DNA from: Candidatus Nitrosotenuis cloacae
GTDB taxonomy: Archaea; Thermoproteota; Nitrososphaeria; Nitrososphaerales; Nitrosopumilaceae
Direction of reading: 5' to 3'
Assembly (NCBI RefSeq): GCF_026768455.1
Contig: NZ_JAPPVQ010000008.1
Coordinates: forward strand, 1 to 51,470
Length of the DNA stretch: 51,470 nucleotides
Shown piece after piece: positions 9,164-42,611 of this stretch. Under the pieces are notes generated by a model, which did not search any database, had not been told where the DNA came from, and was given only the letters and a program-made list of their open reading frames with translations. The number at the start of each line of letters is the position of its first letter. Position 1 is the stretch's first letter. A program made the position numbers and the translations under genes.

Positions 9164-9262
9164 GCCGGGGTCGCCTAGCCTGGTAGGGCGCGCGCCTGGA
9201 AATCTAAAAACCATAAAGCGCGTACTCGCAAGGGTCCGAGAGTTCAAATCTCTCTCCCGGCG
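9164..9262 (+). tRNA. tRNA-Ser (GGA), intron-containing
   Basis: A cloverleaf can be drawn. The acceptor is gccgggg (9164-9170) pairing with tcccggc (9255-9261), with discriminator G 9262. The anticodon stem is cgcgc (9191-9195) with gcgcg (9218-9222), and the long variable arm of a serine tRNA spans about 9223-9237. The T arm is gagag-ttcaaat-ctctc (9238-9254). The anticodon GGA is at 9198-9200. The anticodon loop is 22 nt instead of 7, so about 15 nt (about 9202-9216, after position 37) should be an archaeal intron removed by the splicing endonuclease. Only CC of CCA follows in the DNA. Confidence 0.9.
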
Positions 9263-36927: not shown

Positions 36928-38436
36928 ATGTCAGTGAGCACCAAAAAATCTACCAAGCCTGCAAAATCGACTGAAAAATCAGTATCTACAGGACTTGCAA
37001 AAAAAGACTCTGCAGCACTTGCCAAGAAGGTTGCCGCAGTCTCTGATTCTACTAAAACACTCTCAAAAGAGATCAAATCTATGTCAAAGATATTTTCAGA
37101 CAACCAGAAGGTGCTAATCTCAATTAAGGACATGATTGACACGCTTACCAACGCACTGGAGCAGATCCAAAAACAGTCAAAACAGATGACGATGCTTGAG
37201 GAGGACAACGAGCGCCTCTTTGCCGGGCTGAATCAAGTGCGAGCTCAGGCATCATTAATTACAAAGATAAACGATCATGCAACACGCCTGCAAGAACAGG
37301 TAAACAAAATATCTCAGGTACAAAAAGAGTCGCCCGACTCTGGCAGCATAATGAAGGTGATTGCGGACAACCAGAACTCCATTCAGAATAACACTCACAT
37401 GATAATCAAAATCGCGCAAAGGATAGACAACATAAAGGACGATCTAGGCCAGCTCTCATCGAAGACTGAGCAGGTTTCGTCTGTCGGCGCTGAAATCGAC
37501 AAACTTCGTGAAAAGATTCAGGCGATGCACGACAGGTCGCAAAAGAGCAACATCGAGTCTGACATTGAGTCTCTAAAGACCGGACTGCAGAGCATCATCG
37601 CAAAGACTGAGACTGCATCAAAGGTTGCTCAGGAACTTGAGGCACTGCGCGACAAAATAGGCTCACTTTCGGATAAAGCGGACAAGATAGGACAGCTTGG
37701 AGACAAGGTCCAGGAACTGCAGCAGGAGTTGTTCACAAACATGGCAAGAACTGATGCTGTAACGCACCTCTCCGGCGAGATCCAAAAGATAGAGTCCGAG
37801 ATTGACTCACTCGTAAAGCGGGCGGACAGCACCGCGTTTGTGGGGGAGGGATTAAAGTCCGTCCAGAGCGACTTTGCGTCATTCAAGGATACTGTGTTTA
37901 ACAAGACAAACACAATCGACCAAAAGATCTCCACCATGACAGAGATGCTCAAAAGATCCGATGCGTCAATGTCAGAATTCCACAAAAAGACGGACGGCGT
38001 CTTTGGCAGCTTGATGGAGGTAAAGAATGCCACCAACAAGTCGTCGTCCAACACCTCAAAGGAAGTGATGGCGCTGCTCAAGCTGTCCGAATTCCAATCA
38101 AACATCAGAATAATCACGGAATCCAAGTATGGCGACCTCAAGGACATCGAAAGAATGGCCGAGCAGACTGCGTCGATTGTCAACCTGTTTGACAAGATTG
38201 CAATCGAGTCGCAAGAAAAGGTGTCGCTGCCTCTAGAGGTACGCCAATGGGCCGTAAGCAAAATGCTTGACTGTGCAGACAAATGGGAGATACGATTCTC
38301 CGACTTGTTCAACGTCTTGATTGCCAAGCTCGGAAAGGAGCTCGTAAAGGGGGCAATTCGTATACAACAGGTACGTGACATCTTTGGAATTCGAGGCGTC
38401 GACGAGATAAGAAAAGAGCTAAACATCCCGGCATAG
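36928..38436 (+). CDS. Long coiled-coil protein with six 24-residue repeats
   Basis: 502 residues, almost entirely heptad-like helix. A Lys/Ser/Thr-rich N-terminus of about 25 residues is probably disordered. Residues 178-320 contain six repeats of 23-24 residues, starting at 178, 202, 225, 249, 273 and 297. The pattern is [KR]-[TA]-[ED]-x4-hydrophobic-x2-E-hydrophobic-x2-Leu. The last 75 residues (after about 430) look globular (LEVRQWAVSKMLDCADKWEI, then GAIRIQQVRDIFGIRGVDEI). No TM segment or ATPase motif. No family recognised. A TATA candidate (cttttatt) is near 36903-36910. A cytoskeletal or chromosome-organising role is only inference, from its shape and ATPase neighbour. Confidence 0.8.
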   Translation: MSVSTKKSTKPAKSTEKSVSTGLAKKDSAALAKKVAAVSDSTKTLSKEIKSMSKIFSDNQKVLISIKDMIDTLTNALEQIQKQSKQMTMLEEDNERLFAGLNQVRAQASLITKINDHATRLQEQVNKISQVQKESPDSGSIMKVIADNQNSIQNNTHMIIKIAQRIDNIKDDLGQLSSKTEQVSSVGAEIDKLREKIQAMHDRSQKSNIESDIESLKTGLQSIIAKTETASKVAQELEALRDKIGSLSDKADKIGQLGDKVQELQQELFTNMARTDAVTHLSGEIQKIESEIDSLVKRADSTAFVGEGLKSVQSDFASFKDTVFNKTNTIDQKISTMTEMLKRSDASMSEFHKKTDGVFGSLMEVKNATNKSSSNTSKEVMALLKLSEFQSNIRIITESKYGDLKDIERMAEQTASIVNLFDKIAIESQEKVSLPLEVRQWAVSKMLDCADKWEIRFSDLFNVLIAKLGKELVKGAIRIQQVRDIFGIRGVDEIRKELNIPA

Positions 38437-38687
38437 TATTATAGAAAAGCAGTCAGATACCCCAGGTCTCACTCTACATTAATTTCAGATGACCTAATCA
38501 TCACCCTGCAAGGCACATTTGACGACGTTTCCTAATAAGTTCTGACCCTGCCAGGCCGGCACGAGTTTGACGGCTGGGTGATTCTGAGCGTGGAATGCCA
38601 AAAAGCAAACAATACGTAACAATTTTTAACAAAATTGTAATACAAGTCGACCTTTCCCGTTAAAAAAAATTTTGGGAATCCTAAGGC
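38437..38687 (+). other. 251-bp intergenic region before the wHTH-ATPase pair
   Basis: I find no open frame of interest here. The region holds the palindrome at 38619-38638, an A-rich TATA candidate at 38660-38668 (ttaaaaaaa, 24 bp before ATG 38688) and part of the inverted repeat 38673-38698. A weak C/D-box-like pattern on the minus strand near 38460-38520 is not convincing. Confidence 0.5.
38619..38638. promoter_or_regulatory. Palindrome upstream of the winged-helix gene
   Basis: acaatttt-taac-aaaattgt has perfect 8-bp arms and a 4-base spacer. It is about 22 bp upstream of the TATA candidate, so it is a candidate operator, possibly for the winged-helix protein itself. Confidence 0.5.
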
Positions 38688-38698
38688 ATGAATTCCCA
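38673..38698. promoter_or_regulatory. Inverted repeat spanning the winged-helix start codon
   Basis: tgggaat (38673-38679) and attccca (38692-38698) are perfect 7-bp arms with ATG 38688 in the loop. If the transcript is leaderless, the left arm is not in the RNA and this would be a DNA site over the transcription start. With a longer leader it could hide the start codon. Confidence 0.4.
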
Positions 38699-39233
38699 GA
38701 TTCTTGATAGGGTAGTAGCTTCAGGAATCTGCGGAATAAAAAAGGCCGAACTGAAGAAGATCTTCGGAAAGGACTGCGACTCGTCGCTTGAGACCCTCGC
38801 AAAAGACGACAAAATCATCGTGGACAACAAGGGTGTTGCGCACTATGTGTGGAGCAAGGAGAACTATCTGTCTCACATCTCAGAGCACGACCCGAAATTC
38901 AAGATAATCTCAAGGCTGGTTCGAAATCTGGAAAACTCGGTAAATCAGCTAAAGACGGACCTTGCGGCAACGCCGGCAAAGGGCCACTCCGAACTGCCAT
39001 TTAAGACGCATTTTGATCAAACCATTATCGGACTCTCCACCTCGCTTGGCTGGGTGCCGTTTGCAAACATACGCCAGAAGGTGTGCGAGTCGCTGCAGAT
39101 CACGACTGAAAAATTCTACTCCCTTGCGTCAGAATTAATCGAGGCAAATCAGGGCAAATATGAGATTTCAACCGGGGGCCAGGAAGGCATCCATGTACGC
39201 GGCCTGCTACACGGGTACGTGAGAAAGCTATGA
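38688..39233 (+). CDS. Winged-helix-like protein of the coiled-coil/ATPase locus
   Basis: 181 residues. The N-terminal 70 residues (ILDRVVASGICGIKKAELKK and the following LAKDDKIIVDNKGVAHYVW, a wing-like hairpin) look like a winged helix-turn-helix. The middle segment (about 75-105) is a short coiled coil. The C-terminal part (VPFANIRQKVCESLQITTEK, then LIEANQGKYEISTGG) may be a second winged-helix domain. It could bind DNA or act as a protein-binding adaptor as in SMC-associated kite proteins; this is inference. ATG 38688. It overlaps the ATPase gene by 4 bp. Confidence 0.65.
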   Translation: MNSQILDRVVASGICGIKKAELKKIFGKDCDSSLETLAKDDKIIVDNKGVAHYVWSKENYLSHISEHDPKFKIISRLVRNLENSVNQLKTDLAATPAKGHSELPFKTHFDQTIIGLSTSLGWVPFANIRQKVCESLQITTEKFYSLASELIEANQGKYEISTGGQEGIHVRGLLHGYVRKL

Positions 39234-40834
39234 CATACCCGTACGGCCTAAAAGACAACCCATACCCTAGCAGCCCGACTCCGACTGAGCAAGACGCGCG
39301 AATTCTCGGGGGCACAAAGCACCAGGAGGCAAAGGCCACAATCGTGGACTGCATCTCGGATTTATACAAAAAGACCTCGAGAAGAAACTCGACCGATGAC
39401 GATTTCAGATTGATCACACTCGTGCAGGACGTAGGAAGCGGAAAGACACACCTTGCACTTCACATCAAGACCCTCAAAACCAGGCAGGACATAGTTACAA
39501 GCTACGTGGACCTCTCGTCGATATCACCAAAGACCAACGAGAGCATCTACAATTCAATAGTTAACGGATTCAGCAAAGAGATGTTCTCCGAATTGAGGGG
39601 GAAATTCATCTGGCAGATATGCGACAAGGCGCAAAAAGGCGACGTGCTGGCAAAAAGAGTACTTGGATACGGGTTCGTAGACAAGCTAAAGGGAACTACA
39701 ATGAAGCAAAAGGCAGAGGACATAATTTATGACAAAAAGATGATTTCACAAGAGTCGTTGGCAGCGTACCTTGCATCAAACTATTCGCAGCACGAATCGG
39801 TCGTGATACAAAACGTGATCAACAAGTCGTTTGGGAGAATAACCAACCTAGACGAACTGCACGGGCGACTTGGAGCCATAGCAAAGTTCAGCCACAACCT
39901 GCTCGGAAAGGTGATCCTCTTTGAGCTGGACGAGTTTGATTCCCAGGAGGGGACACTTGAGTTTGTAAAATCGCTCATCAACGCGCACATTCCGGCATCG
40001 ATTCTACTGTTAATTACAACTCCATCCGTGTACCTTGAGGTGCAAAACACCAACCCGTCGGTCTTTGACAGGCTGGAGAAGGCAAACTACAAAATCGATC
40101 TTGCCGGCGCAAACTCCGTCGACGAACTAATCGAGATAGCAATCGAGTACATCAAGGAGGCAGACAAAACGGAGAGATTCAACAAAAAGGAACAGCAGGA
40201 CCTGGCAGCAAAGATAAAGGTCCTCTGCGACGAGTTCCCTGAGTTCAGAAACGTCCGCTCGATAATCAACATACTAAACCATGCAGTCGAAAAGGCAGCA
40301 GACCTCGGCGCATCAGAGATATCTGAGGCAGTAATCGATGAGACGATAAAGCAGACTTATCCGGGACTGAAGATCAAAGGCAGCATCATGGAGGTTCCAA
40401 TATCTGACTTTATCAAAATAAAGCGAACATCGGGCACTACGCAGGCTCAGGTGCGACAGGCGGTGTCGAATCTGGTAAATTATGCGCACGAAATAGGCAA
40501 CATCTCAAAGTCGAGCAAACCGAACCCGTCGTTTGACGTGGTGTACTCTGACCCGTTTGGCACAAAGATCGGCATAACCGTGGTAATGGACAACAACCAC
40601 ACAAAGAACTTTGAGACGATCTCAAATGTGATAAAGTCGTCTGCATTCGTCGACAAGCTGATAATCCTGACAAACACCAGCCTTCCGCAGTCAAACCAGG
40701 CCACGATCGTGATTGTGGACAAGTCCAAGGTAATCGATCTACTCTACTTTAACAACCAGTACACCGAGCACAAACTGGAAGAACCCGAGTCGGAAAAGGC
40801 AAAAATGCTCGCAAAAACAATCTGCGTCATCTAA
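39230..40834 (+). CDS. AAA/ORC-like ATPase with a C-terminal unknown domain
   Basis: 534 residues. The N-terminus YGLKDNPYPSSPTPTEQD resembles the entry segment of ORC/ExeA/TnsC-like ATPases. Walker A is VGSGKTH (about 68-74), Walker B is VILFELDE (228-235) and a sensor-1-like LLLITTPS follows (about 259-266). A helical lid spans about 290-375. The C-terminal 120 residues (about 415-534; SFDVVYSDPFGTKIGITVVM) look like an alpha/beta domain, perhaps nuclease-like, with no catalytic motif I can assign. Translationally coupled to the winged-helix gene. The partner could be DNA or the coiled-coil protein; function unknown. Confidence 0.75.
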   Translation: MTYPYGLKDNPYPSSPTPTEQDARILGGTKHQEAKATIVDCISDLYKKTSRRNSTDDDFRLITLVQDVGSGKTHLALHIKTLKTRQDIVTSYVDLSSISPKTNESIYNSIVNGFSKEMFSELRGKFIWQICDKAQKGDVLAKRVLGYGFVDKLKGTTMKQKAEDIIYDKKMISQESLAAYLASNYSQHESVVIQNVINKSFGRITNLDELHGRLGAIAKFSHNLLGKVILFELDEFDSQEGTLEFVKSLINAHIPASILLLITTPSVYLEVQNTNPSVFDRLEKANYKIDLAGANSVDELIEIAIEYIKEADKTERFNKKEQQDLAAKIKVLCDEFPEFRNVRSIINILNHAVEKAADLGASEISEAVIDETIKQTYPGLKIKGSIMEVPISDFIKIKRTSGTTQAQVRQAVSNLVNYAHEIGNISKSSKPNPSFDVVYSDPFGTKIGITVVMDNNHTKNFETISNVIKSSAFVDKLIILTNTSLPQSNQATIVIVDKSKVIDLLYFNNQYTEHKLEEPESEKAKMLAKTICVI

Positions 40835-40838
40835 AACC

Positions 40839-40858
40839 AAAATCATTTTAATGATTTT
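40839..40858. promoter_or_regulatory. 20-bp perfect palindrome between ATPase and antiporter genes
   Basis: aaaatcatt-tt-aatgatttt has 9-bp arms with a 2-base spacer, inside the 36-bp gap. It overlaps the likely TATA region of the antiporter (ttttaat), so it may be an operator. It could alternatively act as an A/T-rich terminator hairpin for the ATPase transcript. Confidence 0.5.
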
Positions 40859-40870
40859 ATTTTCAACTAT

Positions 40871-42175
40871 GTGTTGCAAAACTATCTTCTACAAGTAGTC
40901 GACCACTCAAAAAGCATGGTTGACAGCGCCATGCAGGGCGCATCCCAGAGCATGTCTCCGCATAACTCATCATTTATCACCGATCTTGCAATAATCATGA
41001 TTCTTGCGTCCGTTGTGACGCTTGCATTCTTCAAAATGAGGCAACCTCTGATAATTGGGTACCTTTTTGCAGGGATGCTCATAGGCCCGCTCTCTCCTCT
41101 GTGGAGCTGGTTTTTGCCCGAGGGCAGCGGAGTGCTGGGGCTCGGCGGGCAGATACTCTCGGATCTGAACGTACTCAACATATTTGCCGAACTTGGAGTC
41201 ATACTACTCCTGTTTGTCATCGGAATAGAGTTCCCATACTCAAAGATCCGCTCAATAGGCAAGGTGGCAATAGGTGCAGGCACCATCGGACTGTTCCTGA
41301 CACTCGGAGTCGTGTTTTACGTGTCAAGTGCGATGGGGTTGAGCTTCTTTGACTCTTTGTTTTTGGCGGCGGCACTCTCCATTAGCAGTACTGCGGTACT
41401 AGTCAAGATACTTGAGGACACAGGCAGGATCAAAAGGGAGTCGTCGATTCTTGTCTTGGGCATACTGATTGTGGAGGACGTGATTGCAGTCATACTGCTT
41501 GCGACACTAGAGTCTGTGGCACTTGTGGGAAGCGTCTCGTACGAGGGAATAATTGTAATCATACTGATTGCGGCAGCACTAATCGGCGGAACGCTGACAA
41601 TTGGAACGAAGGTAATTCCAAGACTGATTGACAGGGTCGCCGCAACCCAACACAAGGAGATACTGCTTCTGTCAGTTCTCGGCGTGTGCTTTGGATATTC
41701 ATTGTTTGCAAGTTTTGTCGGGCTCTCAGTTGCAATCGGCGCATTTCTGGCAGGCGTCCTTGTCGCGGAATCAAAGTCGTCTGAGGTCTCAAAGATCCTT
41801 GCCAGTCCTATCAAGGACATGTTCGTTGCGATATTCTTCGTCTCCGTTGGAACGCTGATGAATGTGTCTGAGCTTGGAAACTATGTATTTCTGGCACTGG
41901 GACTCATAGTGCTTGCGATTGTGGTCAAGTTCGGAGGCTCGATGATTGGGAACTTTTTGTTCGGGCAGGGACGAGCAAAATCACTCCGCTCATCATTTGC
42001 GCTGGCTGGCCCAAGAGGGGAATTCTCGATAGTCATGGTGAAAACAGGCGTCGACATCGGTGCCGTAAGTACTTTTGTGTTTCCGTTAATCGGAGTCATA
42101 TCTATAATTACTGCATTCATAACACCATTCTTGATTAGGGCAAGCGATAAACTCGTATCAAAGATTGAGGAATAA
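40871..42175 (+). CDS. Cation:proton antiporter, CPA2 (KefB/NapA-like) family
   Basis: 434 residues with about twelve membrane segments. GYLFAGMLIGPLSPLWSW, LLLFVIGIEFPYSKIRSIG and AALSISSTAVLVKILEDTGR are hallmarks of CPA2 Na+/H+ or K+/H+ antiporters. The region GILIVEDVIAVILLATLE contains the membrane acidic residues ED that bind the cation. It lacks the C-terminal TrkA-N regulatory domain of KefB/C. GTG 40871 start. The next gene overlaps no sequence but starts two bases after the stop, so a soluble partner may be co-expressed. Confidence 0.9.
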   Translation: MLQNYLLQVVDHSKSMVDSAMQGASQSMSPHNSSFITDLAIIMILASVVTLAFFKMRQPLIIGYLFAGMLIGPLSPLWSWFLPEGSGVLGLGGQILSDLNVLNIFAELGVILLLFVIGIEFPYSKIRSIGKVAIGAGTIGLFLTLGVVFYVSSAMGLSFFDSLFLAAALSISSTAVLVKILEDTGRIKRESSILVLGILIVEDVIAVILLATLESVALVGSVSYEGIIVIILIAAALIGGTLTIGTKVIPRLIDRVAATQHKEILLLSVLGVCFGYSLFASFVGLSVAIGAFLAGVLVAESKSSEVSKILASPIKDMFVAIFFVSVGTLMNVSELGNYVFLALGLIVLAIVVKFGGSMIGNFLFGQGRAKSLRSSFALAGPRGEFSIVMVKTGVDIGAVSTFVFPLIGVISIITAFITPFLIRASDKLVSKIEE

Positions 42176-42176
42176 A

Positions 42177-42611
42177 ATGTCAGAAGATGAAATGAAGAAA
42201 CTAATGGATCGGGTGCACGTAGGCGTTACGTCATTCAACTATAACGGAATCGCAGTACCATGCGTCATTTTAGCTGAGAAAAAGTTTGACGAAATAATGG
42301 CAAAGGTGGCCGGAAAGCCGCTCTCGGTGGACACCAACCTAAACATACTGCAGGACGGCCTTGGACACGTGTTTGTGGAGGTGGTTCTCACATTTTCGGA
42401 GGGGGGAGTGGAGGAAAAACTCCTACTTTATGCCAACGAATCGTTGGAGTTCTTTGAATCACTTGCAACCAGCTCAATGCTGGCCCTTTCGTCTCCTCAT
42501 TCGCAGGTCGGAAAGGACAACGTGTTCATGATCCAACTTCCAAGGCCCGAGAAGATCTCAGACGCCCTGGACATCATCAAAAAGGGACTGGCCGCAAAGA
42601 CTGAGACCTGA
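42177..42611 (+). CDS. Soluble hypothetical protein coupled to the antiporter
   Basis: 144 residues, alpha/beta, no Cys-rich or membrane segment. DGLGHVFVEVVLTFSEGGVE looks like a beta hairpin and NESLEFFESLATSSMLALSS like an amphipathic helix. No family recognised. ATG 42177 (MSEDEMKKLMD) begins two bases after the antiporter stop; a start 12 bp earlier is possible. A role as regulatory subunit of the antiporter is a guess from position alone. Confidence 0.65.
   Translation: MSEDEMKKLMDRVHVGVTSFNYNGIAVPCVILAEKKFDEIMAKVAGKPLSVDTNLNILQDGLGHVFVEVVLTFSEGGVEEKLLLYANESLEFFESLATSSMLALSSPHSQVGKDNVFMIQLPRPEKISDALDIIKKGLAAKTET

Follow-up and report, generated by a model that had tools for sequence, protein, structure and literature searches.

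A two-gene module of a tandem winged-helix protein and an initiator-type AAA+ ATPase in ammonia-oxidising archaea and more distant relatives

What do three consecutive genes of the archaeon Candidatus Nitrosotenuis cloacae build together, when one encodes a long coiled coil, one a winged-helix-like protein and one an ORC-like ATPase? The genes lie on a stretch of 51,470 nucleotides (RefSeq assembly GCF_026768455.1, contig NZ_JAPPVQ010000008.1, positions 1 to 51,470; hereafter the window) from a genome of 1.68 Mb. A preliminary description of the window proposed that the three form one new system reminiscent of SMC/kleisin/kite complexes. The three open reading frames (ORFs) on which it relied, 36928-38436 (502 amino acids, aa), 38688-39233 (181 aa) and 39230-40834 (534 aa), all on the plus strand, were confirmed, as was the 4-bp overlap between the winged-helix and ATPase genes; most congeners and several distant relatives show the same overlap. 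Of the three genes, only the winged-helix and ATPase genes (38688-40834) make up the real unit, a two-gene module with the following features.

38688..39233, plus strand: tandem winged-helix protein, 181 aa (AlphaFold2 (AF2) model, structural matches)
39230..40834, plus strand: initiator-type AAA+ ATPase, 534 aa (alignment, AF2 model, structural matches)
39230..40396, plus strand: AAA+ core and lid of the ATPase, residues 1-389 (invariant columns of the homologue alignment)
40397..40831, plus strand: C-terminal domain of the ATPase, residues 390-534, PD-(D/E)XK-like topology (secondary structure, motif in relatives)
38616..38641, plus strand: inverted repeat, putative operator or binding site (aligned in 11 congeners and other genera)

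The two genes travel together. The ATPase is present in 21 of 41 relatives, and the winged-helix gene is found in 19 of these 21 and in no other relative; in the two ATPase-positive relatives that lack it, the ATPase lies at a contig edge in one and is solitary in the other. We then scanned 300 sampled genomes of the phylum with a winged-helix profile, taking E 1e-7 or better as a strong match, and obtained strong matches in 59 genomes from nine families. An AAA ATPase ORF directly follows the winged-helix ORF in every one of the loci that we opened from more distant families (20/20), several of them with 4-bp overlaps. These distant ATPases are homologous to that of the window by ATPase profile (E 2e-7 and weaker), and BLAST between the ATPases of the distant groups gives E values down to 7e-21. 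The pair is an ancient archaeal module; of the system put forward in the preliminary description, the winged-helix gene and the ORC-like ATPase gene are supported as an unassigned unit. Among ammonia-oxidising archaea (AOA), ATPase distances correlate with those of a neighbouring glycosyltransferase (0.98) and of the winged-helix protein (0.96), which argues that descent in this group was mainly vertical, with losses. Some genomes of family f35 hold two paralogous winged-helix/ATPase pairs (L223 and L224; L229 and L230).

Neither protein is named by the resources that we searched. Pfam and NCBIfam return nothing above cut-off for the window's winged-helix protein or ATPase, a PDB sequence search gives no informative match (RecA matches are limited to the P-loop region), and no paper on the pair was found in the literature searched, where SegC appeared as a distinct topic; the family catalogues searched exclude those of the arCOG type. 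Both the class of the ATPase and the winged helices belong to known kinds; it is the two-gene combination, its spread and the C-terminal domain that are without a name in these libraries and papers.

The smaller protein had been called winged-helix-like, which is correct yet understated. Its AF2 model (pLDDT 80) predicts two winged helices, at residues 1-60 and about 102-181, joined by a long helix or linker (57-101). The N-terminal one matches winged helices of SelB and of RPC39 (RNA polymerase III) at Z 9-10 and also resembles MarR/ArsR types; ScpB (6juv) matches the protein at Z 8.2, over the N-terminal domain only. The C-terminal one has many winged-helix matches, including the C-terminal domain of Cdt1 (3a4c, 8s0e) at Z 8.2, tied with MarR types. 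Across relatives the protein ranges from about 160 to 419 aa, with linker growth of more than 200 residues. We note that in L053, L056 and L063, where it has 405-419 aa, a long coil-like linker separates two conserved ends.

For the larger protein, the label ORC-like holds well. In its AF2 model (pLDDT 83) the structural matches span residues 1-389, not residues 390-534; the best is the archaeal Cdc6/Orc1 structure 2qby_B (Z 15.2), the next 1w5t (Z 14.6), and ORC subunits, TnsC, MuB and BrxC (Z 12.1) follow, as does RdrA. Foldseek concurs with modest E-values. The Walker motifs reported at first sight were found again as QDVGSGKTH (residues 66-74, with K72/T73) and ILFELDE (D234/E235), invariant across an alignment of 24 homologues, in which R281 (DRLEKANYK) and R343 also occupy invariant columns; by position, these two would serve as Arg finger and sensor 2. 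TIGR02928, the Orc1/Cdc6 family, is absent among the NCBIfam matches of the window's ATPase at E up to 1, and a separate canonical Orc1/Cdc6 lies elsewhere in the genome, over cut-off in a genome-wide family search. The ATPase occurs in two main forms, one of about 445-620 aa with the C-terminal domain and one of 250-275 aa without it.

That C-terminal domain is predicted to be mixed alpha/beta, with the secondary-structure order a-b-b-a-b-b-a-a and no winged helix, and from motif and topology rather than a solved fold it reads as PD-(D/E)XK-like. In the family alignment the D...DxK motif is intact in L064 (VDVY..VLDVKI), L069, L223 (PDIYF..IGDIKI), L229 and L239, and the catalytic motif is lost in the window protein (FDVVYSD..ITVVM) and in all aligned ammonia oxidisers; L054 gives a weak Mrr_cat match. 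Where one genome holds two pairs (L223/L224, L229/L230), the two differ, with D...DxK intact in one and degenerate in the other.

A nuclease-like domain behind a P-loop ATPase brings to mind a defence or anti-plasmid system, with the winged-helix protein as recogniser and the ATPase as a counterpart of BrxC or RdrA. The structural matches to these two proteins, the motif retained in some relatives and the patchy presence of the pair would all fit such a role. The motif is lost in AOA, however, and the pair descends vertically at a fixed syntenic place. Neither do the neighbours scanned include a defence gene, nor does PADLOC give a match of note (PglZ only for the ATPase, at E 0.05; none for the winged-helix protein), and no copy was found on the sampled viral, phage or plasmid records, the viral contigs being searched with a single peptide pattern. 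We regard defence as a distinctly unlikely explanation.

The pair is preceded by an inverted repeat of the type GTAACAA-N12-TTGTTAC (full form GTAACAA...TTCAC...TTGTTAC), 47-72 bp before the winged-helix start; its aligned counterparts stand at a similar place. A degenerate pattern with three mismatches allowed was searched against 13 genomes. Exactly one copy per genome was found in seven of them, always before the winged-helix gene, and none in G015, G018 and G019, which are genomes without the pair; in three pair-bearing congeners the repeat copies are too diverged for the pattern. The reversed-pattern control gave 0 matches, and shuffling the window yields 0.00 chance matches to the degenerate pattern derived from the repeat and its relatives. 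The repeat is probably an operator or binding site.

Two further accounts of the locus turn on this repeat. In the first, the ATPase would be a STAND-like, ATP-driven sensor controlling the winged-helix protein, itself a conventional transcription factor that acts on few targets. The repeat's position, immediately before the promoter region, suggests such a switch, as do the MarR/ArsR-like N-terminal winged helix and the weak nSTAND/NB-ARC Pfam matches among relatives. A single repeat per genome means, however, that no regulon is seen; no sensor repeats were seen either, the C-terminal domain reads as restriction-endonuclease-like rather than as a repeat sensor, and ORC/Cdc6 proteins remain the best structural matches. 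We therefore hold a switch of this kind to be unlikely. In the second account the repeat would mark an additional origin, served by the pair as initiator in the manner of oriC3-whiP in Sulfolobus. The WhiP precedent (PMC4010727, PMC5333045), the Cdt1-like C-terminal winged helix and the single conserved repeat beside its own Orc-like and winged-helix genes are consistent with this, but a lone repeat at a promoter position suits an operator better. In addition, orc1 opens the complete record of congener G013, where the pair is found 1.19 Mb into the 1.62 Mb, and cumulative GC skew shows no turn at the locus (1.2 of 1.62 Mb covered; skew is a weak test). The location of orc1 elsewhere and the missing skew turn make a weak argument against a second origin, which we consider very improbable. 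The 479-aa ORF adjoining orc1 in G013 was read as DNA polymerase D small subunit. As possible rivals, signalling or transcription control ranks first, then defence, then an extra origin.

A link to replication of a different kind comes from one distant genus, in four genomes of which gins and mcm directly follow the pair in the order winged-helix - ATPase - GINS - MCM (Pfam: Sld5 E 3e-6, MCM E 3e-101). In sister genera of the same family there is no GINS/MCM match beside the pair, some of the pieces being short. According to a published review (PMC5333045), no clear homologue of Cdt1 exists in archaea, and the same review asks what loads the helicase. The pair might, as a long shot, be an unrecognised archaeal module for helicase loading or replisome assembly, in which a split ATPase of Orc/Cdc6-like type and a tandem winged-helix partner akin to Cdt1 act on MCM-GINS; such a module would be widespread across Thermoproteota, with secondary loss in many AOA.

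Taken together, the results make it very probable that the unit is a module of a winged-helix protein and an initiator-type ATPase that acts on DNA. With a good deal less assurance, but still on balance, we favour a fuller model of what it does. The winged-helix protein, its two winged helices separated by a flexible or coiled spacer, would bind specific DNA, including the inverted repeat before its own gene, and would thus regulate itself. In complex with the ATPase it would be the targeting subunit that carries its partner to DNA. The ATPase, of the Orc1/Cdc6-TnsC class, would assemble there in an ATP-dependent manner and serve to load or switch another DNA machine. Its C-terminal domain may cut DNA in some lineages, and in AOA it may only bind or scaffold. 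A chromosomal replication or repair transaction is the most likely setting. Because whole genera lack the pair, we take it to be accessory rather than essential.

Several observations weigh against this interpretation. Solitary ATPase genes with no adjacent winged-helix gene occur in L059 (7840-9450, minus strand), L073 (3021-4637, plus strand) and L054 (3681-5351, plus strand), which argues that the winged-helix partner is not always needed; no winged-helix gene was found elsewhere in the genomes of L059 (G325) and L054 (G036), in a search run without a positive control. Most of the sampled members of g28, a large genus of the same family, lack the pair, which is hence dispensable. The gins-mcm linkage is limited to one genus, and about 0.43 Mb separate orc1 from the G013 locus, which shows no skew turn. 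Finally, the weak resemblances to STAND/NB-ARC proteins and to BrxC make signalling or defence possible. A deep, consistently linked pair without a family name in one phylum well deserves consideration as a missing part of archaeal chromosome biology. Its Orc-like ATPase and possibly Cdt1-like partner, which stand beside gins-mcm in one genus, also make the helicase-loader question testable in genetically tractable hosts.

Two neighbouring genes fall outside the module.

36928..38436, plus strand: coiled-coil protein, independent neighbour (presence/absence, synteny)
42165..42611, plus strand: 148-aa protein without family, conserved neighbour (synteny)

Membership of the coiled-coil gene in the system was not borne out. 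The gene is present in 24 of the 41 relatives, in one through a short coil match only. Six relatives carry the coil gene but no ATPase gene (G007, G012, G015, G017, G018 and G019), and the reverse holds in four (G025, G026, G031 and G036); in G026 the sole match is a short coil stretch at E 6.5e-4. Its strand and neighbours differ across genera, and several other genera of the family have it inverted, adjoining the glycosyltransferase gene. In congener G015 the coil gene, the antiporter gene and the 148-aa gene follow one another with no gene between, and G018 and G019 are likewise without the pair at the same site; both genes are absent in all three, so that the pair comes or is missing as one block. 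The genes stay together in relatives as a two-gene unit and fail to do so as three, and a three-gene unit is ruled out by the presence, absence and synteny of the coil gene.

The same data bear on a three-gene SMC/kleisin/kite-like or chromosome-organising system that would include the coiled-coil protein. The tandem winged helices, as in kite proteins, and coil-type matches of the coil protein to SMC/Rad50/Jet families would speak for it. These matches are far below cut-offs and confined to coil regions, though, the coil protein has no P-loop, and the ATPase is an initiator-type AAA+ protein without a long coil, not an SMC. With the coil gene inherited independently, genomes that hold one part without the other refute the three-gene unit, and we give this idea almost no credence. 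The C-terminal stretch of the coil protein (about residues 390-500) is well conserved and was seen only within this archaeal family.

The 148-aa gene directly follows the ATPase in most other AOA and is kept where the pair has been lost, which places it outside the module. Both palindromes reported earlier are real; the upstream one is the inverted repeat described above, and the second, at about 40837-40866 beyond the ATPase gene, apparently goes with the antiporter gene downstream instead, a similar sequence preceding that gene in a pair-less congener (L173). Just 3' of the coiled-coil gene lies a conserved non-coding element (38449-38509, minus strand); most congeners retain it, and one of these lacks the pair. 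Read on the minus strand, it shows the boxes GTGATGA and CTGA together with a GCAG/CTGC stem at its end and resembles a C/D-box guide RNA; it has no Rfam match. In the window as a whole only tRNAs exceed the Rfam threshold, among them a 99-nt tRNA at 9164-9262 (plus strand; 39.4 bits) that ARAGORN missed and that probably contains an intron.

How does the pair compare with known systems? With SMC-kleisin-kite and Wadjet systems it shares a tandem winged-helix protein beside an ATPase, but its ATPase is not an SMC and the coil protein is unlinked and without a P-loop. DUF234-type archaeal ATPases carry a C-terminal restriction-endonuclease-like domain, a feature that the pair's ATPase would share; they differ in that ATPase_2 matches weakly in relatives and not in the window protein, and DUF234 was not detected. 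TnsC, MuB and BrxC belong to the same ATPase class (Z 12-14) and are targeted by a separate DNA-binding partner, as the pair's ATPase may be, but no transposase or BREX genes stand among the neighbours examined and the accessory domains differ. WhiP has a tandem winged-helix layout. Its kinship with Cdt1 has been described (PMC4010727, PMC5333045). The pair resembles both through its own tandem layout and a C-terminal winged helix that matches Cdt1 no better than many other winged helices, and the likeness to WhiP is one of layout. Closest is Orc1/Cdc6, which has the same AAA+ core and lid with Walker A and B motifs; the window's ATPase differs in lacking a match to TIGR02928, in coexisting with a canonical Orc1/Cdc6, and in ending in a PD-(D/E)XK-like domain while a second gene encodes the winged helices. 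Whatever its role, the pair splits the ATPase and DNA-binding parts that Orc1/Cdc6 combines in one chain.

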